A DNA stretch of 64,000 bases from Branchiostoma floridae (lineage: Eukaryota; Chordata; Leptocardii; Amphioxiformes; Branchiostomatidae), in the NCBI RefSeq assembly GCF_000003815.2, contig NC_049981.1, positions 29,032,669 to 29,096,668 of the forward strand. The letters are read 5' to 3'. Below, piece after piece: positions 391-58,016 of this stretch (the stretch's first letter is position 1; each line of letters begins with the position of its first letter). Both the position numbers and the translations under genes were made by a program. The notes beneath the pieces are model-generated. The model saw only the letters and a program-made list of their open reading frames with translations. It did not search any database and was not told the origin of the DNA.

Positions 391-746
391 CAGGGCTCGA
401 AATGCTTTTTTCTGCATACCTGCACCGGTGCAGGTAACATTGAAAATTACCTGCACCAGACAAACTTAACTTGCACCTGTGACTCTGAATTTAGGAAGTA
501 TGGATCATACTAAAATCGTTCAGGAACCATTGCTATTTTTTGAAAATACTTTATAGGTGGTAACAGTCAATGCAGCTAATAACAATCCATATACACCTGC
601 ATCATATGACATTCATCATGTATAAAACCAGTACAAAATGTACATGGACCAGTGCAGGTTACTTGCAGGTAGACACCAGAAATACTTGCACAGCTCCAAT
701 TTTACCTGCACTAACCTGCATATGCAGGTGGTTTTTCAAGCCCTGT
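391..746 (+). mobile_element. CAGGGCTCGAAA inverted-repeat element, copy 1
   Basis: About 356 bp, beginning CAGGGCTCGAAAT and ending in the near reverse complement (TTTTTCAAGCCCTG), with many CCTGCA/TGCAGG words inside. Two closely similar copies lie at 50351-50683 and 55244-55576. No transposase is encoded, so it is a non-autonomous DNA element. A second partial end (GCAGGGCTAGAATG) follows at about 752, and this copy lacks the clean 5-bp target duplication of the other two. It lies in an MCU intron. Confidence 0.75.
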
Positions 747-1425: not shown

Positions 1426-1629
1426 GCTAAGAAAGCTATAGACCTGTATGCAGCAAAGCGCAGCCGCTTCCTTGTGTGGGCGGGGTTAGGTTATATGGCG
1501 CTGCAGTTTGGCGTCTTGGCCCGGCTGACGTGGTGGGAGTACTCCTGGGATATCATGGAACCCGTCACGTACTTCATCACGTACGGGACGGCCATGGCTG
1601 CGTACGCTTACTTTGCCGTAACCAGACAG
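1426..1629 (+). CDS. MCU: MCU pore exon A (68 codons)
   Basis: Flanked by CAG (1423-1425) and GTACAG (1630). Encodes TM1, the [13 protein letters not shown] filter loop and TM2 ending AVTRQ. TM2 reads [14 protein letters not shown], close to vertebrate MCU. It differs from exon B mainly before TM1, at both ends of TM2 and at many third codon positions. Confidence 0.9.
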
Positions 1630-3128
1630 GTACAGTGGGCATGGCAGGACGTGGCTGTATAAGGGAGCCGAGAACTCTGGTGTGAAACCTTAATATAACT
1701 TTTGGCTTTTTTTTTTTTACACCCTCCACAATTTTGACAAAATTTCTTCATGAGTGCTAGAAAACAAACACCAAAGTCATATATCAGATGTATAACGCAT
1801 CATTAAATCATGCAGATTTGTATGACAGGTCAAAAGTTTGTCTCACACCAGTGTTCAAAAGCTGACCTTTGACTATTGTGCCGTGACGTTCCCGTGTCTG
1901 TGTGAGTAATCCCGTCCCTGATGTTTGTACCCCTAGGTTAGAAAGGAGCTTGCCACGCGTGCGGAGAAACGCACCACCTTCATAGTGTACTCCGGGCTCG
2001 CGTACATGGCCTTGCAATTCGGCCTGTTCGCTCGCCTGACTTGGTGGGAATACTCGTGGGATATCATGGAACCTGTGACGTATTTTACTGGATATGCGAT
2101 GTCGATGGCTGCATACGCTTACTTCATTGTCACAAGACAGGTGTTGTATCATGATCTATTTTTTTTAGCACACACTGGTCACTTTGAATTTGAAATTTCA
2201 CCTTTCAAATCTCATTGTCAGTTTCTCAACTTTCAATTAATTGCTGGATATACAATTGATTAAAAGCTTGAATAATGCTTTTTTTTATTTTTGTCATGTT
2301 AACAATTTTACAGCAAGTGTCTTTTCAAATTTAAAATGACCAATGTTGTTAGCATCGACACAGTACTAACCTTGCGACGTCTCCATTCCCATGCCTAATA
2401 ATATGCATTCTTAATTCATCATCATTCATCATTCTTAATTGCATACCACCTTTGTTGTTACTGTGCCATGATCTGTTACTGTAACAGTTTTCTGTTGCTT
2501 TAATGTTTGCTAACTTTTTAGTTTTAAAGAGTAAACCATTGTTTTTTGTGGCCTTCTGTAACATGGTGTTGTCATGTCCAAGGGTTGGTCAAATAGGCCA
2601 GAGTAAGAAAGACTGGCTGAAAATGGAAGTTTATTTTCTCTCCACATCCATCAAATGGTCATGTTACTGTCAGTAATTATAACAAGACTGTGCCATGACT
2701 GTGGTCTGTGTGTAGTTTCGTGTATGATAAAACTGTTACTGTACTTGATGAGAATATGATATTACAGACCTGGTCCTTTAGAAATTCAACATTGCACCAT
2801 CATTTCATAGCTGCACTCTGGCAGGCGTCTCTCTAACTGACTATTCTTATCTGTTGTGAAGAACATTAAATATTTCTTACCATTCTTTGCTACCCCCGCC
2901 CCCCCCTCCCCAAATCTCCTACAGGAGTATGTGTACCAGGATGCTGCAGACCGTCAGTACCTGCTGGGCTTCCACAAGAAGGCCAAGAAGGTCAAGTTCG
3001 ATGTGCAGAAGTACAACTTCTTGAAGAGCCAGATCTACCAGTGCGAGGTGGACCTGAAGAGACTTAGGGACCCCCTGCAGCTTCACCTGCCCATGAAAGA
3101 CGCAGAAGACATCGCTAGGCAGGACTAA
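1426..3128 (+). CDS. MCU: Mitochondrial calcium uniporter pore subunit, C-terminal half (exons 1426-1629 or 1937-2140, then 2925-3128)
   Basis: MCU is the pore-forming subunit of the inner-membrane calcium uniporter and carries calcium into the matrix. Three coding exons are visible; the 5' exons lie outside the window. Two successive exons each encode the end of the first coiled coil, TM1, the WDIMEP filter loop and TM2; the last exon encodes the matrix helix and C-terminus (67 residues, stop TAA). All three are exactly 204 nt and all junctions are phase 0. A transcript using either pore exon is in frame; one using both would be in frame too but would carry two pores. The WDIMEP filter and the WWEYSW sequence before it are the family hallmark. 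Both exons keep the Asp and Glu of the filter. Confidence 0.93.
1937..2140 (+). CDS. MCU: MCU pore exon B (68 codons)
   Basis: Flanked by CCCCTAG (ends 1936) and GTGTTG (2141). Same length and phase as exon A. Begins with a RAEKRTT stretch that resembles vertebrate MCU more than exon A does, keeps [13 protein letters not shown], and has TM2 [14 protein letters not shown]. It lies 307 bp after exon A. The open frame has no stop, and differences from exon A in the conserved core are largely synonymous, so it does not look like a decayed copy. Confidence 0.9.
2141..2924. other. MCU: MCU intron between pore exon B and last exon
   Basis: A 784-bp intron. No RNA gene or repeat recognised. Ends in a long C/T tract. 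Confidence 0.6.
2925..3128 (+). CDS. MCU: MCU last coding exon
   Basis: Acceptor CTCCTACAG ends at 2924 after a C-rich tract. Starts [14 protein letters not shown], the segment right after TM2 in MCU, then the matrix helix ([12 protein letters not shown]) and stop TAA at 3126-3128. An ATTAAA at 3161 is a possible poly(A) signal. Confidence 0.92.
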   Translation, partial: EYVYQDAADRQYLLGFHKKAKKVKFDVQKYNFLKSQIYQCEVDLKRLRDPLQLHLPMKDAEDIARQD

Positions 3129-6100
3129 TGAACAATGAGGAGATTAGTGTAGATTTTACAATTAAAATGTGCACAAAGTCTGTTGATGATCACATACATG
3201 GTTGGCTATAGCATCAAGCATGGCTGTTAGTTCGGTCCACTGTAGCCTCTACTTTGCACTGCTTTCATTTCAGTCATCACAGATATGCAAATGAGTCCCT
3301 AATTTGCCTATTTGTGATGGCTTGCTGCTGCCCATTTTGTTTTACATGCAAACGTTGAGTTGTTAACTTCTATTGCTAACAGATGACATGAATACAGATA
3401 AAGGTTAGCATTAGTTGTTGTTGACGACTGATGCACTCTCTGTAAATGTGCTATGCAACTAAACTTGCAGGAACAGTGGTTGCGACTCAAGCAGTGGTGC
3501 TGAGAAGTTTCTACCAGTTCCTCCAGTAGTAAGAGTGGCTGCGGTTAAGTGATAGGGCTATATAGTCCACTTAATGACCCAGACCTCAGCCACATTCACA
3601 TGTACACACCATGTGATACTGTCTTTTCCATAACTTTAGTATCTGTATGGTACAGAGATGACCCTACATGTAGGTGCCAGTGTAACCTGTCCTTAAAAGT
3701 TTATACATAAAAGCTCCTTGATTAAACCTGTTTATGGGCTGTTAGGCCACAGCTGTTTCACTACAAGTCCAGTTTGAATGTGTCAGCCTGAATTTGACAA
3801 ATATGTAGAGCTCTATCTCCAACTCTTGAAGGTCTCAAGAGTGTCCTTACTCAAATCAATTTCTCGCTTTTCATTTATTTGCATCCCTGCAGGAATTAAT
3901 TAACCATCCACCACTTTGTTCTGAAATGTACCTGATATATCCTGTACATAGTTGAGGCAACAGACTGACCTGGCACACCATGTGGAAATGTTCATCATAC
4001 TGGTCTTGCTCCATACTAAAATTTACACACGAAGTCAACCATTCCATTAATGGTGTACAGTATGTCTTTTTAGACATAGCAGGATTTTTTGTTTGTTTGA
4101 TTCTGCAGCTGCATTTTAATCAGGATGTTTATTGTACAAGTAGGTTTGTGTACCGTGGCTGCTTGTGGGATAGTTACAATTTTTTGCAACAACGCACAAA
4201 CAGAAACCAGGGAAAGGTATCCAAAGCCAACTTCTTGGTTGTACAAGTCATGTCAGTTATGTCTGTGGGTAGACTGAAAGGACTTTCCTGCCGCCAAGTA
4301 CATTTGTAGTACTAGAAAAGATCCCCTTTGTCAGATTTACCATAGCTCATCATGCCTGTAGTAATATTCAAGAGTCAGACTTCTAGATAGACATTTGTTA
4401 TTTTGTGCTTAAGTGACAAACCAGTGTGGAAATTTCCAAACTTGACTGAAAGTGTACAAAGAAATGCATTTAAAAGTCTGTAGATTGAAGATCATCATCA
4501 ATAATGAGACATATAGATGAAGGTCAGGTTTCTCATGGTCTGTTCTATCTGAGGAAGCCATGGGAAGCAAATCAAAGTCTGGACTGGAGCTGAACGTCTA
4601 TAGATGTGCTGAAATGTCATTAGATTTTGCTCTGTGGGAAGCTGTAAGGAAAAAGATGGTCAAAGGAAGATGATGTTTGGCTCACCAGGTTATTTGCTTG
4701 GTGAATGCATGTCAGAAAGATTATTTGCACAGAAGAAGGTTGTAGAAGAAGTTTCAAGAAAATTGTGATGATGAATCCTTTGAGTTGTAGAATGCATTTA
4801 ACACCTTCATCTCCATAGCCATTTTCTGAAGGAAAAAGAGCTGTTGTCCGTAATTTTGTCTCCAAGAAGAATTCACAGGCTTATTTCTGTGTTGACAGAC
4901 TTCATAGCTTGCTTGTCTCTAATGCTGTTTGTCAGGCATTAGGTATGTGTGGTGAGAGGATATGTACAAGTAGGAAAGATTATGTTTAGACAACAGGCAT
5001 TATTTTGTCTTTTTTCATAAGCGGCAATTTTAGCCAAGCTTTAACAACTTGAAGTGTTCGTTTGGTTCATGGTTGAAGTCAAGTCTTGAAAGGATGACAT
5101 TGTCTATTGTTAAATGATGACACGTACCAAGTTGCCCAGCATTGACTTCACTGTGCCTCAGTGGGATACATGTCAATGTGTTCTAGGGGGAGACAGAAGT
5201 TATTGTTTGTGTGTCTCATAAATATGTATAAAATGGTGTTTCTAGCCACTCAAGTCCCTAGGTTAGGAACTGTGGTACTGATTCAAGATGCAGAATTTAT
5301 CCCAGACAATTTCAACCTCCTTGAATGTTGTAAAACCTGATGTATATCATGATTTAAACAGCACCCTGTAGACATGACTATTTAATCATTACTTATGTAA
5401 GAAGGTAATGGCTTGCTATTTGCATTTACTGTATACATGGTTCTTGATTTGATAAAGCAAGGATAAAGGTAATTCAATTTTACCAATTTAGCAATCACTA
5501 TTCAACCCCTGAAAATTTCATCATTGCCATTATTTGATTTTATCTGTCGTCAGCTAGAACCTTATTCCAACCATTGCAATGAAATGCTGTGACCTAGTCC
5601 CTGTCCCCAAAACTGCTAAAATTACTGACTGCGATATTAAGTGGATTCCCAGTATATCCTAGGGAAACAATGAAGTTGCTTGTATCCAGAGTTTACATAC
5701 TGTGTATCAGTTTGTGTGTTTTGTTGTTACCTGTAGTTTTTCTTTATGGTTGATTACAGCTGTAAGCAGGATTGTTATGTTTGTTGCGCTAGGATTGTAG
5801 GTGGAAATTATGGAAGATATCTAATACAAGGTGAGGAATATTAATGAGGTATAGGTCTCAATGCAATGTGATGAAGACAATCAGTGGTACACTGTGATAA
5901 AACGTACTCAACTACCCCAGAATGAGTTTTGTTCTTCTGCAGCGACGTTTTGTATGTCAAATACTGTCAATTGCTGCAAGCTTGTAGACATGTTTGTCAA
6001 ATTGACTCAAGCAAGGCTTTAGCTTAAGTGTTGTTAGAATTGGGCCCCCTTTATTTGCTGTATTTGTGGAAGTGTGAACTGATTTGGAATGGTGTGGGCC

Positions 6101-6893: not shown

Positions 6894-9515
6894 TTGTGCT
6901 ATAGCTGTCTAACCATCTCTTGCTGTATCTTTCATGTTGGTTTCTTTACTGTGTTTGTGCAATGCTTAAAAAACAGACTTTTCTGCCAAGGATCTCTATC
7001 CATGCTGCCTGCTACCCACGATATTGCTTCATTCTATGCAAAGAACTATAAGGGTCCTGTGTAGAAGGTTTTATAATGTTGTGGACATGAAGTTTGTAAA
7101 ATATGCTGAAGACATTGTGGTTTCCTAGGTGGCAGAAATACACAGGCAATGGAGTTTTGGGAGTCGCCCTCAAGGTATGCTTCACAAAAAATAATTCAAA
7201 GTAATGGATCCCAATTTGTATCCATCATAGAAAATCACTATTGTCTCCCTCCTAAGGGTAGGTATATGCACCAAAATTGTATGAAAGGAGGCTCAAGGAG
7301 AGGTTGTTAGATGCCATTGTTGATAGTTAAGATATTAAGCTTAAAAGAGAGGTGCAAGATGTTTTAGACGACCTCCAACTGATGCTAATATATGGCGTTT
7401 CAGAAGTAAATATGGGGTAAAGCATTGCGCAAGGTTTTTCATCACCAAGAACCATTTGCTTGCGTAGATGTATGTTGGAAGCAAATGGTGCTAGACTCGA
7501 TGGAAATCTTGGCTGCACACAAATGGGGACTATTTTTACACCTATCTCGCTACCAGTACACAACAACTGAGGCCAAATGATGCAGTCGGAGAGGAAATCG
7601 TCAATGTACTTAATGCTGTAACTTGCTGCGAATGCACCGCATTAAAGAAAGCTGCACAGCATTTTTAGGCACGTCTGTGTCTTACGTCAACTGCACCTTT
7701 TGAGAACTACTAATTGAAAGAAAATTTTACATTCTCTAACAGGAAAAACTTGGAATTTAAGATGAAGTATATATATAATGGCATGTTTTGGTAGATTAGA
7801 GAGAATGCGATACTATACTAACTATAGAGGTAGGTCAGAAACGGGAGAGAAACTTTCACTGCTGATGTTCAGAGCATTATAGCATGGGAAATTTTATACT
7901 GTTTGTAAATATGGGGAAATTGCTGGGTACGTTGCTACAATGAGAAAACTTGCAGATGTATTTCTACTGCAAAAAGAGGTTAGCCCTGTACTGTCTGGAG
8001 GCAAGCTGGTGCTGATGCTCCCAGAACTGTTATAACCAGACCTTAGATTGTACCAAGTCTGTATTGCCAAGATTTCTAACTTAGGTAAGAGTTTGATAAG
8101 ATCATGGACTGTTTCTGTGTAACTTCTCACTTGGTTTGTTTCATCGTTTGCTGTTGAAAGTGAAGTCTTACTTTCTCTTTAACTGTTGTGATTTAGTGGT
8201 AACATTAACATTGTATATATATATATATACATGATGGTTTGATTAATGTTGATGGTGTCAGATCTTAAGTGTGTATTTTCTGTAGTAAAACAGTTTAGTT
8301 TAATCTGTGGTAATGGGTTTGTATTGCACTTTTTCTTACCCAATATGAATTTGCTGTCTTTGTTCCACAACATTGTTACTGTTACTTGTTACAACATTTC
8401 CACTCATGACTCATGGACATACTTGATGAACATGTATATGTGGCATTTGTAGAACACGCTGTTGCCTGATGTATGGTGTTCAGAATGCACATTTTCGTGT
8501 GGGGGATTGTTCAGGGCTCTACATGGAGGTTACCAGTGCATCTGGCAGACTCTCAATGTCAATACTGTACCAGGGCAAATAAGTGTAGAGGGACTTTCAC
8601 ATCTTTCACATCTTGATGTCTATGCTGTGTCTCTCATGCGGCACCCTCCAATGTAACCCTTAACTTTGTATCCAGATATGTTTTAGGCATTGTGAATACC
8701 TCCCTGAACAGTCCCTCAGAAATACATGTAGCTCTGACGAGAGCTTAGCGGCCAGGTAAAAGTTGAAGGCAAATAAATAAGAGATGGAAGTTTGTACTGA
8801 GACAAAGAAAGGTATTGCTGGTTTAGGTTGTTGGTGTGCCTTTGCTGAAAGCTAGGCACTTCTATGGCCATGCCTAACTGCTGCAGGTCGTATGTTGTGT
8901 AGGGCTAGGCAAGGGGTAACATATAATCTCCAAGCAGATATTCGGATGAAAGGTTGTACCACTTTCAGCCTACCAAACTTTTCCTTTTTGTATGCATGAT
9001 TGTGATAGGTGCGAGAAAGAAAAGTTCGTTAGGAAGAAAATTTGATGATCTTTCATTGGTACGTCTGCTTGGAGATTATGCGATGTTGGTGACCCTGATT
9101 GTACTGATGTTTTCTGTACAAAGTTTGAGTGTACATCACAATCTGTTACATTGGTATGATTAACAGAATGACTACAAAAACAGATGAATTAGCTGAGAAG
9201 TGTTGGCACAGTCTGTTACTTAAATGTATGTTTAAACTGGCCACATGGTAAGATATACCGGTACTTTTACATGATGTTTCAAATAAAGTTTTGGTTGTGT
9301 TGGTAGTGTTAGTCCCATGTTGCAGTTGTATCATTTGCAAAGATTTCTTTCTGTGAATTTTAAGGAATAGTATAAAAGATAGTGAAGAAATAATTCTGTC
9401 CACAAATGTCACTCATTCTAGCCTCTAAAATGTTCTATGAGTTGGACTTTTTTTCTGATGGTATGTCAGTTTGGTTGCAGTTTGCTTCTATTGCACTCAG
9501 AATCATGTAACACTT
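6894..9515. other. Intergenic, no gene recognised
   Basis: No convincing exon or RNA gene. Contains a short (TA)n tract near 8213-8230. Short open frames here have no recognisable motif. Confidence 0.4.
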
Positions 9516-10097: not shown

Positions 10098-11358
10098 TAA
10101 TGCCTAGCATTATTCTCTTTACATCTTGTGTAGTTTGGTTGTCTTTCACATCATAAGTTCATACTTTTCGTTCTCAAATGCTGCCCAGCTGGGTCTTGGT
10201 TCGGAAATGTGATGGAGACTTCTGTCATTTATCCCAGCTGTGTTTAGATATGAAGCATTTCAGCCATTGTAAGTGACAGTGATGAGAAGTCAGAATCCCA
10301 TGGAACACCATACATGTGCATGTCAGTGGAAGCATCAACTGATTGCTTGTTTCAAAAACCTGTTGCCAGTCAATTTACACATGATAGGCTTAAGTGTTTT
10401 GGTAAATTCATAACTCGGGGATGAACTGGGAAGGACCATTTGGAGGAGGGAGGTGTAGCGAAATCTTTTTCCCAGCTTGACACAAATGTATGTCAATTAC
10501 ATGTGAACCTTCCTTTTCTCTGTTCAAGATTTGAAGGCATCTATCCAGCGTTATGTATTGTATCATCCCATTGGTGCTATCTTTTTGGTAACTTTAAAAA
10601 AAATCCTTCTACGATCCCCTTCTCAAAATTCTTCCTGGTAGGTCCCTGATGATGTCGCATTAGTGCACCATCTACTACTTAAACATCACATCAATCAATT
10701 GAAACCATTTCCACTGAGCTGTCACTTGCATGTGACCAACATTAGGTGGTGTATGTGGTAATTTCATCTGTTAAATAGTAGTAACAAATGCACAAGGCAA
10801 CATTCAATGTCAAGCCCAATAGGCAGAGCTATCATGTACAAGTAGATACTGAATATTTCTCTCATTTTCACTGTCATCCTGGCTTTACATCTACGGAGGA
10901 ACACACAATGTACTTGACTCCCAATGCTTACATAATGCCAAAGCTTGTCTCTGCTGAATTTTGTACTGACATCTACCGAACTGCAAGTAAGCTAAGGACA
11001 TAGATAATGATAAGGAACTCAGCTGTCTAAACGTGGAAATCTGAACGAATACCTCTTTCTACTAATTTGGAATAGATTGAATACAAGTTATATATAATAA
11101 AGATTAGGCTTAATTAGTTTTGGTAACAATGTCTTTATTGTGTTGTTCTCATTACATAGAAGTAGAGAGGCAGGTATTGGAACGAACGAATGGATGTAAG
11201 CATGCAAACAAAAACACGACCATATATGCTTAATCTACATTCAGATGCAGTAGCCGTGCCCTTGTTTTTAGCAGTGTCTTTGCGTGTTTTTATAGATAGA
11301 AAATGTATAAAGAAAAACGTTCAGAAAACACCAACAAACACGCTCAAAACAAGCCATC
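10098..11358. other. Intergenic, no gene recognised
   Basis: No exon-like segment or repeat recognised before the minisatellite begins. Confidence 0.4.
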
Positions 11359-11359
11359 A

Positions 11360-12727
11360 TGTCCGTAAGAGTGGGAGAGGGAAACGTAACCAGTACCACC
11401 GCCATGCCCCTATGTGTGGGAGAGGGAAACGTAATCAGTACCACGGTCATGTCCCTATGTGTGGGAGAGGGAAACGTAATCAGTACCACGGCCATGCCCC
11501 TATGTGTGGGAGAGGGAAACGTAATCAGTGCCACGGCCATGTCCCTATGTGTGGGAGAGGGAAACGTAATCAGTACCACGGTCATGTCCCTATGTGTGGG
11601 AGAGGGAAACGTAATCAGTACCACGGCCATGCCCCTATGTGTGGGAGAGGGAAACGTAATCAGTGTCACGGTCATGTCCCTATGTGTGGGAGAGGGAAAC
11701 GTAATCAGCGCCACGGTCATGTACGTATGTGTGGGAGAGGGAAACGTAATCAGTGCCACGGCGATGCCCCTATGCGTGGGAGAGGGAAACGTAATCAGTA
11801 CCACGGTCATGTCCCTATGTGTGGGAGAGGGAAACGTAATCGGTACCACGGTCATGCCCCTATGTGTGGGAGAGGGAAACGTAATCAGTACCACGGTCAT
11901 GCCCCTATGTGTGGGAGAGGGAAACGTAATCAGTACCACGGTCATGCCCCTATGTGTGGGAGAGGGAAACGTAATCAGTACCACGGTCATGTCCCAATGT
12001 GTGGGAGAGGGAAACGTAATCAGTACCACGGTCATGTCCCTATGTGTGGGAGAGGGAAACGTAATCAGTACCACGGCCATGCCCCTATGTGTGGGAGAGG
12101 GAAACGTAATCAGTGCCACGGCCATGTACGTATGTGTGGGAGAGGGAAACGTAATCAGTACCACGGTCATGCCCCTATGTGTGGGAGAGGGAAACGTAAT
12201 CAGCGCCACGGCCATGTCCCTATGTGTGGGAGAGGGAAACGTCATCAGTACCACGCTCATGCCCCTATGTGTGGGAGAGGGAAACGTAACCAGTACCACG
12301 GCCATATCCCTATGTGTGGGAGAGGGAAACGTAATCAGTGCCACGGTCATATCCCTATGTGTGGGAGAGGGAAACGTAATCAGTGCCACGGTCATGTCTC
12401 TATGTGTGGGAGAGGGAAACGTAATCAGTCCCACGGTCATGCCCCTATGTGTGGGAGAGGGAAACGTAATCAGTACCACGGTCATGCCCCTATGTGTGGG
12501 AGAGGGAAACGTAATCGGTACCACGGTCATGCCCCTATGTGTGGGAGAGGGAGACGTAATCAGTACCACGGCCATGTCCCTATGTGTGGGAGAGGGAAAC
12601 GTTATCAGTACCACGGCCATGTCCCTATGTGTGGGAGAGGGAAACGTAATCGGTACCACGGTCATGTCCCTATGTGTGGGAGAGGGAAACGTAATCGGTA
12701 CCACGGTCATGTCTGTATGTGTGGGGA
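11360..12727. repeat. 45-bp minisatellite, about 30 copies
   Basis: The unit runs GTGGGAGAGGGAAACGTAAT (nearly constant, 20 bp) then about 25 bp reading CAGTACCACGGTCATGTCCCTATGT with variation at a few columns. Because 45 is a multiple of three and the unit lacks stops, long frames stay open on both strands (11190-12785 and 11359-12828 on +, 11268-12806 on -). None has a known domain or clear splice context, so I do not call a protein. Units 11 and 26 onward carry a GGTACC variant. Confidence 0.93.
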
Positions 12728-19817: not shown

Positions 19818-22517
19818 ATGCTGCGGTGTGTGGTGATTCTTCTGGCCGCGTTACACGTCGCACTGGGCCAGGCACCTCGGGGAAGCTACAAGGTGACAGA
19901 CCAGAAGTCAGGAGACACCTGCATACGTGCCGACCTCAGCCTGACGTTCGGCGTGAAGTACCAGAAACAAGACAACACCACGGGCACCGCCACCTTCTCC
20001 CTCCCACCTGACGGCGCCGTGACTGGGACGTGCGACCCTGCTGTTCTCAATGTCACGAACCCCGGCAGGTTCGGCTTTAGTGCGACCTTTACCAAACTCG
20101 CTCCGTTTGGCATAGGAAGGTTCTGGTTGAAAGAACTAGAGGTTCAGTACTATCTGTTGCCCGATCTTTTCCCCGGTGTTTCGTCGGAAACAGTGAACAA
20201 GTCGATGACGGAGAGAGTTACCCTGGATTCCGTTCTCTTTGTGACAAAATATGGGGACTCCTACCTTTGTAACAAGCCCGAGATCGTCCCGATACAGAAC
20301 AACGTACAACTCACCTTCGCCGACGTACAGCTCCAGCCCTTTGACCTAAAGAATGGCATTTTCTCGGCTGCACAGGAGTGTAGCGGTGACCCCACCCCCT
20401 CTCCCCCTGTCACTACCCCCGGTCCCCCCGTCACTACCCCCTTTCCGTTATCCGATGTTGGCCACTTCAACGTCACGGACAAGAAGACCGGTGCCGTATG
20501 CATCTTGGCGAGGCTGGGCGCCATGTTCTCCATACAGTACAAGACAAACGTTAGTACACAGGTGAGCATCGCGACGTTCACTTTCAGTCCCCAGGCTACA
20601 GCGACGGGAAGCTGTGGCAAGAACGCGTCCTTCATAAGTCTACTGGACAAAAGGGGAGTCAATCTAACCGCAGAATTCGGAGTGAGCGCTAACGGTTTGT
20701 TCATGGTCACAAAGCTCACTATTGTATATACCCAGACGGAGACGTTGTTCCCATACAGCAAACATCCGAACACGACTAAGACCGAAAGTTCGCCTGAACA
20801 CATTCTTCTCGCGCCTCTCGGACGTTCGTACCGCTGTAACAGTAGCACTCCGGTTCAGTTCGGTAGTATGGTCAACGCTACATTTTTTGGCCTGAAAGTA
20901 CAGCCCTTCGAGGTCAAGAACAATACTTTCGGAGACGAAGACGTCTGCTCAGCTGACCTGCCACACACGACACCAGAGCCTACCACCCACCCTCACACCA
21001 CCCCTCACCCCAACGTCACCACCCCCATGCCTACCACCTCCCCACCGCGCCCTCCAGAGGGCGCTTGGTCCGTCCGGGGTAAAGACGGCAAACCCTGTCT
21101 CCTGGCTGACGCCGCCATCCAACTGAGGATCCCATACAACAGTACCGGGAACGAGACAAGGACAGCCTTCATCGACGTTCCCAGGACAGCCTCCGCAGGG
21201 GGAATGTGTGGCGCGAACAACTCATCCCTGAATCTGCATTTCAAACCTGGTAACGTCACCCTACAGCTTGGCTTCCGCAAGGAAGGTGAAATGAAGACAG
21301 ACTTTGTCCTGTGGTCCGTCGGAGTTGCCTACAATGAAGATCCGGTCATCTTCAAGAACACCAGCTCGCCTGGAAGACGGGTCAGGCTGGAGAACAGGTC
21401 TCTCAAGGAGTTTGAGACAAAACTTGGGATGGCGTACAAATGTGTTTCGAAAGTGGTGCTGCCCGTTAACCGTTCAGCTGAGGTGGAATTCAGAAACACG
21501 ACATTGCAGCCTTTTGCTGTGGAAGGCGGGAAGTTTGCGAACGAGTCTGTGTGTCCAGAGGACCGGGGCCACACAACACCTCTGCCACACACGAACCACA
21601 CTACACCGCTGCCACACACGAACAACACTACACCGCTGCCACACACGAACAACACTACACCACTGCCACACACGAACAACACTACACCGCTGCCACACAC
21701 CAACCATACTACACCTCTACCCCACACAAACCACACCACTGCTCCTCCACACAAGAACCACACTACTCCTCATCCACACACCAAACCTCCTCACACCAAA
21801 CCTCACCACACCACAGGCCCACCGCTATTCCCACCTGAGCCGAAGCAAGGCAACTACACGGTCACGGGTAAGGACAAGAAACCGTGCATCCTCGCCAACA
21901 TGGGCATCCAGTTTCACATCAAGTACACGAAGACTGACAACAAGCAAGCAGTCGCGAGGTTCAACGCCCCAACCGGCGCTGTCGCTACGGGGGTCTGCGG
22001 ACAGGACAAATCTACCCTGACTCTTGGTTTCTACCAGAACACGATCTCTCTCACTTTTGAGTTCACCAAATCGAAGATGGGGTCGAAGGGGACAGAGTCA
22101 TTCCGAGCAGAAACTATCGACCTGAGCTACAAAGAACTGCAAGCTCATTTTCCCGACGCTAAAGACCCCGCTCAAGTTCGACAGGCCAGCAACAAGTCTG
22201 CACACGCGTTCTACACCGAAGCTGGCCACTCTTACAAGTGTATGGCGGACTACAACTTGACTTTGACAAAGGACGTAGAGATCCTAGTCCGTAAGGTACA
22301 CTTGCAGCCGTTCAGCATCCAGGACGGAAAGTTCTCGTCAGCCCACGAGTGTTCTCTGGACCCGAAACCGTCATCCCCCGGCCACTCTGCCGCCATCGCC
22401 GCTGGAATCATAGTACCGCTTGTGGTTGTCATCGCAGCCGCCGCCGGGTTTTACCTCTACCGACGCCGCAAATTGTCTGGTAAGGGGAAAGGAAACTACG
22501 AACCACTACTGAACTGA
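19818..22517 (+). CDS. LAMP-like lysosomal membrane glycoprotein with four lumenal domains, intronless
   Basis: 899 residues in one exon. A signal peptide (1-17, cut after ALG) is followed by four repeated lumenal domains starting near residues 22, 215, 415 and 678. Each is about 165-175 residues with four Cys and a closing pattern SY.C...(L/V)QPF.(V/L/I)...F....C, which is the LAMP-family lumenal fold. Thr/Pro-rich hinges separate them; the third has a 9-residue repeat (TTPLPHTNN and variants). N-glycosylation sites are many. A single TM helix (about 858-881) precedes a short basic tail ending GNYEPLLN; YEPL (894-897) is a YxxPhi lysosome-sorting signal. Vertebrate LAMP1/2 have two lumenal domains and several introns. 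Likely role: an abundant coat of the lysosomal or endosomal membrane. Which vertebrate LAMP it corresponds to is not clear. An AATAAA at 23343 is the first poly(A) signal downstream. Confidence 0.9.
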   Translation: MLRCVVILLAALHVALGQAPRGSYKVTDQKSGDTCIRADLSLTFGVKYQKQDNTTGTATFSLPPDGAVTGTCDPAVLNVTNPGRFGFSATFTKLAPFGIGRFWLKELEVQYYLLPDLFPGVSSETVNKSMTERVTLDSVLFVTKYGDSYLCNKPEIVPIQNNVQLTFADVQLQPFDLKNGIFSAAQECSGDPTPSPPVTTPGPPVTTPFPLSDVGHFNVTDKKTGAVCILARLGAMFSIQYKTNVSTQVSIATFTFSPQATATGSCGKNASFISLLDKRGVNLTAEFGVSANGLFMVTKLTIVYTQTETLFPYSKHPNTTKTESSPEHILLAPLGRSYRCNSSTPVQFGSMVNATFFGLKVQPFEVKNNTFGDEDVCSADLPHTTPEPTTHPHTTPHPNVTTPMPTTSPPRPPEGAWSVRGKDGKPCLLADAAIQLRIPYNSTGNETRTAFIDVPRTASAGGMCGANNSSLNLHFKPGNVTLQLGFRKEGEMKTDFVLWSVGVAYNEDPVIFKNTSSPGRRVRLENRSLKEFETKLGMAYKCVSKVVLPVNRSAEVEFRNTTLQPFAVEGGKFANESVCPEDRGHTTPLPHTNHTTPLPHTNNTTPLPHTNNTTPLPHTNNTTPLPHTNHTTPLPHTNHTTAPPHKNHTTPHPHTKPPHTKPHHTTGPPLFPPEPKQGNYTVTGKDKKPCILANMGIQFHIKYTKTDNKQAVARFNAPTGAVATGVCGQDKSTLTLGFYQNTISLTFEFTKSKMGSKGTESFRAETIDLSYKELQAHFPDAKDPAQVRQASNKSAHAFYTEAGHSYKCMADYNLTLTKDVEILVRKVHLQPFSIQDGKFSSAHECSLDPKPSSPGHSAAIAAGIIVPLVVVIAAAAGFYLYRRRKLSGKGKGNYEPLLN
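21580..21760 (+). repeat. 27-bp coding repeat in LAMP-like hinge 3
   Basis: About six copies of CTACACCGCTGCCACACACG-type units encode TTPLPHTN(N/H). Such an O-glycosylation-rich hinge is likely variable in length between alleles. Confidence 0.85.
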
Positions 22518-30400: not shown

Positions 30401-33400
30401 TAATTCACTAATTTCTGAAAAAAAGGTACAATACATACATGTTTGGCTGATATGAAATGGAGCTGCCTCTGTCCATTTATTTCTTCCAAGTAGATTGAGA
30501 ACAAAATCCAGTTCTGAGGCTCAAAATCTAAGTTGCACCCTGTGCAACCTGAGTTTAGAAGTAAGTTGCACCAAGCAAAAAGTGGTTGCATTTTTTTGCA
30601 ATGTGCATGTGTGCAAGTGGGTATTTTGCACGCTGTATGGCTTATCTTATTTATTTATTTATTTGTATCAGGCCCATGGCCCATAAAAACAGACACAGAA
30701 CAAAGATTTACAAAGCTACACTTACAAATACTTTACATAATGTCGCCAGAATGTGCTGTGGCAAAAGCCGTCCGAGTGTACAAGCACTCTAATTATATCA
30801 TTGTCAGACGACAGCAGGCGTGTTACAAATGAGTAGGTGACCTTGCGGCGCCTTGCGTCAAACATGTCGGTCCGGTTATTCACAAACAACCAACTAGTAC
30901 TTGTATGCCTGCCGACCGAAAAGAGCAGTTTCATTGCGCTGTGGTAAGCCACTCGTAGCTTGGAGATCGTACTCACGCTGTAATTACTCCAGATTTGGGC
31001 ACAATACATCGGGGAGCAATACGCTGAGAACAACTCACTTTTTACCGCCGCTGAGCAGTAACGAAACCGGCGGAGGAGTGAATTTGCCCGAGAATAAAAG
31101 CCTCTGACGTGAGCTCGGATTGCTGCGTCATCCGAAAGATCAGGGGTAATTATATACCCAAGATATGTGGTAGAAGAGGCATACTTTAAGGCGGTACCGT
31201 ACAGCATCAGCGGCGGCAAAGGCATACTCATGCGGAAGCGGCGACACGGAAAGTACATACATAGTGTTTTCGATTCATTAAACAACATGTCAATATCCGC
31301 TCCAGATAGCTCACAAATACTAATCAGTCTCTGCAACGCTTTAACAGACGGACAGACGAGGCAAATGTCATCCGCGTACATCAAGTGGTTGACTAAGGTG
31401 TCCCCAACATAGCAACCGACTCCAGACCTCAGTAGCTCGGTACTCAAATCGGATACATACACATTGAACAAGATTGGTGACAATATGCTGCCTTGAGGCA
31501 AACCATTCATAGCAGTAAATGTATCCGAGAGGGTGTGGCCCCAACGGACACAGAATGACAACGTACTATACCACACGACCAGGAATCTAACTAGGTACAT
31601 CGGAACTCCTCGATCCATAAGTTTTTTAAACAATGTCCAGTGGTTTACACGGTCAAACGCTTTGGATGCGTCCAGAAAACATGCAAATACAGGAGAGCCC
31701 CTTTGTCGATAATACTGAATAATTTCTTTGAGGGCAAATATACATAGATCAGTTCCATGTTTCTTCTTAAATCCGAACTGGTTGCTCGGGGAGCATAGGA
31801 AATCGTCAAGGTATGTCAATAGTACAGATTCGATGACTTTTAACAAGGGACTGGCAATTGCAATCGGACGATAACTGTCCTTGTTCGAAGCATTACAGCT
31901 GGGCTTCTTCAATACAGGGACAAGTACAACGTTCAGAATGCTAGGTGGCACATAGGCGTGTCTAAGCATAGAGGAAATTAAAATTGAAAGCAGAACGGGT
32001 AGTTGGGGCCCGGCGTTCTTAAGATGCTCAGCTGAAATGCCCTGCACGTCACTAGCCTTCCCATTGGATAAGTCATTGATAGCATCACATACCTCTCCTA
32101 CTGTTACCGTGGGTACATCGCTAACATCAGATTCCATTGCATGCATAACAGATGGTTTGTGATTAGCGGAATTAACCGAATTAAACAAGGAACTGTAGTA
32201 GTTTCTCCACATATTGGCAATATCTGTAGCCCCCGTGTAACCATCAACCGTGTTGGGAAGATTTGGCTTGGAGCGGTTTTGCGAACGCAGAGCATTCCAA
32301 AAACTCTTGCAACCCCCCTGATGAAGATGCATGGCAAGCGCGTCCGCTCTAGACTGGGCCTCAGAGCGGCGACACTGCCTCAGTAACAGCTTAAATTTCG
32401 CCCTTGTTTTACGCATGATATTCCAGACCGCTCCATGCCTAGGACGGCCCAACTGCCGCCAGAGAAGGAAAGCATCTCGGGCGGCTTGATGGGCCTCCTT
32501 GACAACGGCGTTCCAGCCGGGTACAGAGTAAGGGGAGGATCGTTTCTTATAAGGGAGAGAAGCGGAGGCGGCGGCAAGAAGAGTGTTTATTATCTGGTTG
32601 GAAAGGTGAAGGATGGCATTCTTATGAGTATCATTATCACAGTTAGGGTTGTTACAGTAGAGAACGTCATCGGGGATGAAGATATTAGATAGGAGTGTAT
32701 TAGAGTAGGTTTGGTAGCGAAGCAGATCGGCTGGAGTTGCGCGTTCCCAATTAACATACATATCCATTTTGCTGTACTACATTGTGGGTTGAAAGAGACA
32801 ATTAGGCCACATCAATTTAGTTCCTTGGTTTACAGGCATTTGAAAGGTAAGATTAAGTAAGTGGACTATACAAGGGCTCGGTGTATATGTCACAGGAGAG
32901 ATGTCGATCCAGTAGAATCGTCGATTCTCCTAGGAGAGATCTCGATCGGAGCTGGTCCTAGGGCCAACTCCGATCGGGGTCTGTCCTAGGAGAATCAACG
33001 ATTCTACTAGTACTAGTATAGATTGCGATCGGGGTCTCTCCTAGGGCCAACTCCGATCCAAACTCAAAGGATGCTAAGATATTGGAAACAGACTGCGATC
33101 GGGATCTCTCCTAGGAGAATCGGCGATGAATGTCCACATGTAAAACTGTATACTGTGGTACAGGTTTTCTCCAGCTACATTTGTAAATTTGTAGGTTGAT
33201 TTGTTGACTTCGTAAAATAGCAAAAAAAATTGTAAAAAAAGAAAAAAAAAAAACAGACCCTATGTACATTTAGTTATTGTCAGATCTAGATATTGACTTT
33301 TTCAGTATTGATTATTTTTTGTTTAACTTGTCTAGTGTGTAAGCCTAAAAACATGCTAACCCCCTTTGGCTCTTGACCTATGACATTCAAGGTCATAATT

Positions 33401-56829: not shown

Positions 56830-58016
56830 GATAACGTTTACAGCTTAAAGTTAGATTAATTCTACCTGAATATAAAAGGTAACATCAGCCAAACTTGGAT
56901 AACATCTACAACTTAATGAGTTACAAGTTAGATCAACTCCACCTACAAATGTATATCAAAGGTAACATAAGCCAAACTTGGATAACATCTACAACTTAAT
57001 GAGTTACAAGTTAGATCAACTCCACCTACAAATGTATATCAAAGGTAACATAAGCCAAACTTGGATAACATCTACAACTTAATGAGTTACAAGTTAGATC
57101 AACGCCACCTATATCAAAGGTAACATAAGTCAAACTTGGATAACATATACAACTTAATGAGTTACAAGTTAGATCAACTCCACCTAATATCAAAGGGAAC
57201 ATCAGTCAAACTTGGATAACATATACAACTTAATGAGTTACAAGTTAGATCAACTCCACCTATATCAAAGGGAACATCAACCAAACTTGGATAACATCTA
57301 CAACTTAATGAGTTACAAGTTAGATCAGCCAAACTTGGATAACATCTACAACTTATTATATAATAATGAGTTACAAGTTAGATCAACTCCACCTATATGT
57401 ATATCAAAGGGAACATCAGCCAAACTTGGATAACATCTACAACTTAATGAGTTACAAGTTAGATCAGCCAAACTTGGATAACATCTACAACTTATTATAT
57501 AATAATGAGTTACAAGTTAGATCAACTCCACCTATATGTATATCAAAGGTAACATCAGCCAAACTTGGATAACATCTACAACTTAATGAGTTACAAGTTA
57601 GATCAACTCCACCTATCTCAAAGGGAACATCAGCCAAACTTGGATAACATCTACAACTCAATGAGTTACAAGTTAGATCAACTCCACCTATATCAAAGGG
57701 AACATCAGCCAAACTTGGATAACATCTACAACTTAATGAGTTACAAGTTAGATCAACTCGACCTATATCAAAGGGAACATAAGCCAAACTTGGATAACAT
57801 CTACAACTCAATGAGTTACAAGTTAGATCAACTCCACCTATATCAAAGGTAACATCAGCCAAACTTGGATAACATCTACAACTTAATGAGTTACAAGTTA
57901 GATCAACTCCACCTATATCAAAGGGAACATCAGCCAAACTTGGATAACATCTACAACTTAATGAGTTACAAGTTAGATCAACTCCACCTAATACCAAAGG
58001 TAACATCAGCCAAATA
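56830..58016. repeat. 75-bp tandem repeat, about 15 copies
   Basis: The unit contains AACTTGGATAACATCTACAA, TTAATGAGTTACAAGTTAGA and TCAACTCCACCTATATCAAA. Most units are 75-81 bp; two shorter, altered units with TTATTATATAATAATGAG occur at about 57330 and 57468. The 75-bp period keeps frames open on both strands (for example 57485-58048 on -, a 25-residue repeat with three Cys), but no start, splice or homology supports a protein. Confidence 0.93.

Follow-up and report, generated by a model that had tools for sequence, protein, structure and literature searches.

Two pore exons in one MCU gene

Does a lancelet build two versions of a mitochondrial channel pore from a single gene? The question is raised by two tandem exons of the uniporter gene MCU of Branchiostoma floridae, found near the start of the window, i.e., the whole 64,000-nucleotide stretch of DNA that was analyzed (C3:29032669-29096668), which begins inside the MCU gene. 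Judging from sequence, this gene probably carries two alternative pore cassettes, normally one per mRNA, and an exon pair in the EMRE gene could diversify the channels too. We infer that exons A and B are used exclusively of each other, that the choice is regulated and that their products differ in function.

Exon A (1426..1629, plus strand) and exon B (1937..2140, plus strand) are both open and 204 nt long, in phase 0 at both ends and bordered by AG and GT, exactly as an earlier note on this DNA had placed them. That note had also proposed two complete pore cassettes in one gene, and each exon indeed encodes a whole TM1-WDIMEP-TM2 hairpin, laid out in both as flank, TM1, WDIMEP filter and TM2 and corresponding to human MCU 220-287 (human numbering is exon position + 219). 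Both exons lie above the cut-off of the Pfam MCU family (PF04678; 118.8 bits for A and 109.4 bits for B against 30.8, profile positions 78-144). In a phmmer comparison, residues 1-68 of exon B align to 220-287 and residues 6-68 of exon A to 225-287 of chain 6o58_K, which we take to be human MCU and whose numbering places DIME at 261-264 as in the papers. Apart from the physical overlap of the two loci, the tandem A/B match is the sole long one between them and is confined to the exons.

Exon B is followed by an intron of 784 nt with a pyrimidine-rich acceptor (2141..2924, plus strand) and by the constant last coding exon (2925..3128, plus strand; 68 codons including the stop). The first residue of this exon is the equivalent of human E288, which places the EMRE-dependence domain, with limits given as human MCU 288-297 (PMC7425227), entirely in this exon. 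Residues 285-287, which belong to another group's version of this region, are TRQ in both A and B. The first coiled-coil exon lies upstream of the window (stretch L005), ends at C3:29027991 with ...EPLEK in phase 0 and reads in frame into A or B; its match to the MCU family is weak (28.9 bits, below the cut-off of 30.8). The two exons upstream of it presumably encode the MCU N-terminal domain, as assigned by eye against the human MCU sequence. Either hairpin would be joined to one and the same set of an N-terminal domain, an EMRE-dependence domain and a C-terminal coiled coil. In the MCU intron that precedes exon A there is also a repeated CCTGCA/TGCAGG-rich element (window 391-745; L005 ~3510-3860, 8108-8455, and 9133-9470), in both orientations when judged by eye.

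Divergence and constraint of exons A and B

Exons A and B are identical at 46 of 68 residues and at 140 of 204 bases, with differences at 36 of 68 third codon positions, 12 first positions and 16 second positions. Silent sites have changed at 34.5 of 46 (pS 0.75) and replacement sites at 29.5 of 158 (pN 0.19; Fisher p ~1e-11), 11 of 19 comparable fourfold sites differ, and dS is estimated at 2.1 (LWL85) to 2.5 (ML) with a dN of 0.21-0.22. WDIMEP is kept in both exons and the amino acids of the entire filter loop (exon residues 34-50, human 253-269) are identical, with different codons at 7 of 13 degenerate sites; residues differ at 16 of 33 positions before the loop and at 6 of 18 after it. 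The earlier note had described this pattern, mostly silent change in the filter loop and amino-acid change around TM1 and TM2. It had also read the duplication as old and kept under selection, which is supported by silent sites that are much diverged and replacement sites that are constrained, in a pairwise comparison that does not separate constraint per branch. The pair is adjacent, homologous, equal in length and phase, and constrained (again pairwise, not per branch), as in a tandem duplicated exon substitution.

Both exons are equally distant from human MCU (47/68 each), at an identity similar to that between A and B. At 43 aligned sites the residue is the same in human and beetle MCU, where 'human' is the label that we assume for the chains compared and the 6x4s chain is beetle MCU as stated by its source. 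Exon A keeps 41 of these residues (canonical-looking version) and exon B 36 (derived version). The two exons differ at seven of the 43 sites: at 237, 250, 271, 273, and 275 A keeps the shared residue and B does not, while at 249 and 283 neither does. Exon A thus looks canonical and exon B derived, although exon B is closer to human than exon A before TM1 and at 241 (220, 221, 223, 229, 232, 233, and 241), which runs counter to this polarity.

Channel positions that distinguish A from B

In human MCU, A241 and A251 cross-link to EMRE F77 and T82, and I270 and M276 to EMRE I84 and P76; the cross-links in TM2 disagree, according to their own authors, with distances seen by cryo-EM (PMC7425227). 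The MCU mutant A241W is rescued by EMRE F77A, and F269W and T271W were the only severe mutants among 16 in TM2 (PMC4892889). In the beetle protein, T271A was among the mutants that resisted purification, and the E-locus is described as the selectivity filter (PMC9757755). The E-locus is identical in exons A and B, 251 and 276 are unchanged, and the exons differ at 241 (G in A, A in B), 270 (I, T) and 271 (T, G). On a helical wheel, 271 and 275 fall on the same side as E264 and Y268, which faces the pore, and 270 and 273 point away from it. Because of this position of 271 and 275, exon B may shift a hydroxyl one turn deeper into the pore (T271/A275 to G271/S275). Counted on the same wheel, A/B differences are not enriched on the EMRE-facing side of TM1 (3/8 within 60 degrees of 241 against 3/11 elsewhere in 234-252).

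Exon A would provide an ancestral-type pore. Exon B would keep the calcium filter with changes in the pore below it and in the faces that touch EMRE, so that a channel made with B is expected to stay calcium-selective and to differ in conductance, gating or EMRE affinity.

A single MCU gene found

The MCU family profile was searched against the whole assembly (513,431,437 bases in 431 contigs, with C1-C19 of 17-35 Mb) and gave three matches, all within the present MCU gene; with exon A as the DNA query, A and B were the only matches. Neither search revealed a second MCU gene or an MCUB gene in the 513-Mb assembly. In vertebrates there are likewise two pore-forming MCU versions per animal, but these are separate genes that stem from a vertebrate duplication (PMC7423614), whereas the lancelet versions are exons of one gene. 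Moreover, the residues equivalent to R252 and E257 of human MCU are W and V in MCUb (PMC11068563), while both lancelet exons retain R252 and E257 and lack the W/V hallmark, which leaves the analogy to MCUB unsupported.

The overall sequence points the same way: identity to human MCUB is 37/68 for exon A, 36/68 for exon B and 38/68 for human MCU, and neither exon is nearer to MCUB. The role like that of MCUB suggested in the earlier note is unsupported on both grounds, also for exon B.

A parallel exon pair in the EMRE gene

Searching for the EMRE family (PF10161) gave two matches 484 bases apart on C13, outside the window (57.1 and 53.2 bits, cut-off 27). They lie in an EMRE gene (L011:5434-7092, corresponding to C13:22270434-22272092) with two tandem terminal coding exons, parallel to the MCU pair. 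Its single first exon has 57 codons (L011:5434-5604), and the terminal exons E1 (L011:6486-6599) and E2 (L011:6979-7092) each follow a CAG acceptor and have 38 codons including the stop. Both encode the C-terminal, MCU-binding half of the membrane helix, a GxxxS motif and a six-Asp tail, with 27 of 37 identical residues (28 of 38 if the stop is counted). The first 31 codons give a pS of 0.84 and a pN of 0.25 (Fisher p ~2.6e-6), and this pair too has the properties of a tandem duplicated exon substitution, with constraint that is pairwise and not per branch. A separate first exon for E2, which would mean two EMRE genes, was considered and rejected: stretch L011 has one full first-exon match, and all others have an E-value of 0.53 or worse.

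Since E1 carries a stop codon, simple skipping would decide the isoform: inclusion of E1 would give one EMRE and skipping of E1 the other, ending in E2. A donor-like site, AAGGTAACA, lies downstream of the E1 stop (7.2 bits), and through it E1 could be joined to E2 as untranslated sequence. No AATAAA or ATTAAA occurs after position 6501 in L011. With alternative exons in both genes, more than one kind of MCU-EMRE channel may be possible by splicing. The earlier suggestion that splicing tunes EMRE binding, unlike its MCUB part, is strengthened by an EMRE gene that itself has two tandem versions of the MCU-contacting exon.

Of the residues shared by human and beetle EMRE, E1 keeps 19/21 and E2 16/21, and at position 84 E1 has I, like human and beetle, while E2 has M. 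However, E2 scores slightly above E1 against human EMRE (43.5 against 39.4 bits), which makes the polarity weaker than in MCU and counts against a pattern in which the upstream exon is the canonical one.

Frequency of tandem exon pairs and precedents

In both human (214 of 19,988) and fly (154 of 13,969), ~1.1% of coding genes have annotated tandem duplicated exon events, with an enrichment in ion channels (PMC9741552). As the MCU pair was our starting point, the relevant chance is that of EMRE, i.e., ~1% at the general rate and more for a channel gene. Three further genes were examined for tandem exons (EMRE, LETM1, and MICU1), one of which had a pair. The LETM1 (4 matches) and MICU1 matches (10, to a 363-residue stretch) revealed no tandem-repeated region over the stretches searched; their ranges partly overlap, include stop-containing matches and were read as neighboring exons. 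We also scanned 274 kb (20 systematically placed 10-kb stretches, the window and L011), where 412 raw pairs were reduced to 15 rows by a coding filter. Two of these rows are MCU A/B and its antisense, and 13 were taken as repeats by eye. The EMRE pair, which served as positive control, failed the filter; the scan is therefore insensitive and the published rates were used.

The described tandem homologous channel exons are ancient, enriched in ion transport genes and give isoforms that differ in one membrane segment, similar to the lancelet pairs, but they are annotated splice events (PMC9741552), whereas alternative use in the lancelet is deduced from the genome. The lancelet MCU exon is further set apart from the cases in that source in that it encodes a mitochondrial channel's pore hairpin in full and that the partner subunit has a parallel pair. 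A precedent is also given there for tandem exons that were partitioned between paralogues (PMC9741552). The titles and abstract openings among the literature matches listed contain none on alternative MCU pore exons or alternative EMRE membrane exons. The EMRE exon pair parallel to the MCU pair goes beyond the earlier note.

Splicing signals

The earlier note had credited both exons with good splice sites, which holds for the acceptors. The donors of A and B are weak, with 4.6 bits each on assumed weights, a score reached by 8.5% of the 4259 GTs in the window, against 6.3, 8.4, and 11.1 bits for three other donors of the MCU gene and 8.9 bits for the EMRE exon 1 donor. Weak donors are often seen in regulated exons.

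The A-B intron (1630..1936, plus strand) is an ordinary GT-AG intron of 307 nt. Branch-point-like motifs are found at -18 before A and at -16 before B (CCCTGAT), with AG-exclusion zones of 28 and 30 nt, respectively; zones this short mean that a distant-branch-point arrangement is absent. Exclusion of the OGDH type was hence ruled against by the 30-nt zone before B in the 307-nt intron. Exons 4a and 4b of OGDH, a gene of the mitochondrial calcium response, likewise go back to an ancient duplication, but they are kept exclusive by branch points close to the upstream donor (PMC7969005). Intron-intron RNA pairing gave no sign of a switch in this one genome, as the duplexes are not stronger than those of shuffled sequences (in three comparisons with 40 shuffles each, 3, 13, and 13 shuffles reached at least the same energy). 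A simple count of splicing-factor motifs found no Rbfox site in the first 3200 bases. Both the A+B form and the form that skips both exons stay open and in frame, and we found no mechanical safeguard against double inclusion or double skipping in the reading frame, the A-B intron or intron pairing. Exclusivity, if real, must come from trans-acting factors or from elements beyond those found.

Competing explanations

Alternative use of the exons is supported by equal-length, in-phase tandem exons with similarity limited to the exons, by constraint on replacement sites alongside silent divergence (0.75 against 0.19 in MCU, 0.84 against 0.25 over 31 codons in EMRE), by the equal closeness of A and B to human MCU (47/68) with a single MCU gene found, by donors of A and B that score below three others in the gene and by an EMRE gene with one first exon and two terminal exons. 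The A/B differences at 241, 270, and 271, which are EMRE-contact or function-critical positions in human or beetle MCU (PMC4892889, PMC7425227, PMC9757755), would fit as well, as would, by analogy, the enrichment of tandem duplicated exon substitutions in ion channels (PMC9741552). The lack of a safeguard against double inclusion or skipping counts against it, as does a pairwise pS/pN that cannot show constraint per branch. If both exons were included together, an MCU subunit with a double hairpin and two filters per chain would result. Such a transcript is open and in frame, the 307-nt intron has an ordinary acceptor and no barrier was found, but each exon alone aligns to a full TM1-TM2 hairpin, solved MCU chains have one hairpin, and a second would likely separate the coiled coil from the first pore, which makes joint inclusion very improbable. 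We give equally little credence to a duplication relic with one exon rarely or never used: the two weak donors and the further drift of exon B from the human and beetle residues (36 against 41 of 43) would agree with it, but replacement changes are strongly suppressed despite much silent divergence and both exons are equally near human MCU at 47/68. Finally, exon B might encode a low-conductance, MCUB-like subunit that, mixed with A subunits, damps the channels. Exon B has changed T271, a residue whose replacement by Trp impairs human MCU and by Ala led to a beetle protein that was impossible to purify, and A273, S275, and I283 are common, by eye, to B and human MCUB; this option is nevertheless unlikely, as R252 and E257, changed in MCUb, remain and B (36 of 68) is overall no more similar to MCUB than A (37) or human MCU (38) is.

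Under the preferred reading, alternative use of the exons, the parallel pair in EMRE turns co-selected MCU and EMRE isoforms into a concrete hypothesis: a matched splicing code may choose MCU-A with EMRE-E1 and MCU-B with EMRE-E2 together in particular cells, an idea that we advance tentatively and with less than even confidence by some distance. The upstream exon keeps more of the human and beetle residues in both genes (41 against 36 of 43 in MCU, 19 against 16 of 21 in EMRE), and MCU 270/EMRE 84 is the sole reported cross-linked pair that varies on both sides, being I-I (as in human) in A:E1 and T-M in B:E2. One co-varying pair in four is close to the chance expectation (4 x 22/68 x 10/37, ~0.35), which would suit a coincidence, i.e., alternative use in both genes with choices that are independent and nearly equivalent in function. 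Given that ~1.1% of genes are affected and that four uniporter or comparison genes were examined, a second case would be uncommon yet possible; against coincidence, the parallel sits in two membrane subunits of one channel, at segments that touch each other. We regard coincidence as quite plausible, if short of an even chance. The chytrid A. macrogynus likewise has two MCUs (MCUa and MCUb) and two EMREs (EMRE1 and EMRE2), and its MCUa worked to differing degrees with the two EMREs, but there they are two encoded proteins of each kind (PMC7423614), while the lancelet has exon pairs in single genes.

Implications and neighboring features

If alternative use is true, the lancelet varies both the pore and its pore-opening partner by exon choice, and would be a natural experiment on how conductance and gating depend on TM1, TM2, and EMRE while the filter is fixed. 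Four natural MCU-EMRE combinations would be available for tests of how MCU is opened by EMRE. Extra genes (MCUB, MICU paralogues) are the usual explanation of uniporter diversity, and the question is raised whether an additional gene in vertebrates and an additional exon in the lancelet meet one need in independent ways.

A MICU1-like gene is located outside the window (C3:28983172-28991225, minus strand), ~32 kb before the first identified MCU exon and on the opposite strand. MICU1 and MCU are neighbors in human too, so the adjacency may represent conserved linkage. Within the window, an intronless open frame of 899 aa (19818-22517, plus strand) encodes a LAMP-like protein in which four Lamp2-like luminal stretches are followed by a hydrophobic segment at the C-terminus; human LAMP1 has fewer luminal domains, namely two. 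An open frame of 681 aa on the minus strand (30722-32767) contains a reverse transcriptase domain (RVT_1, 110 bits) and is probably a retrotransposon remnant or copy. Two tandem repeats were also found, one of 45 bp with ~30 copies (11357-12725), in which three long frames are open on both strands, and one of 75 bp with ~13 copies (57035-58014).
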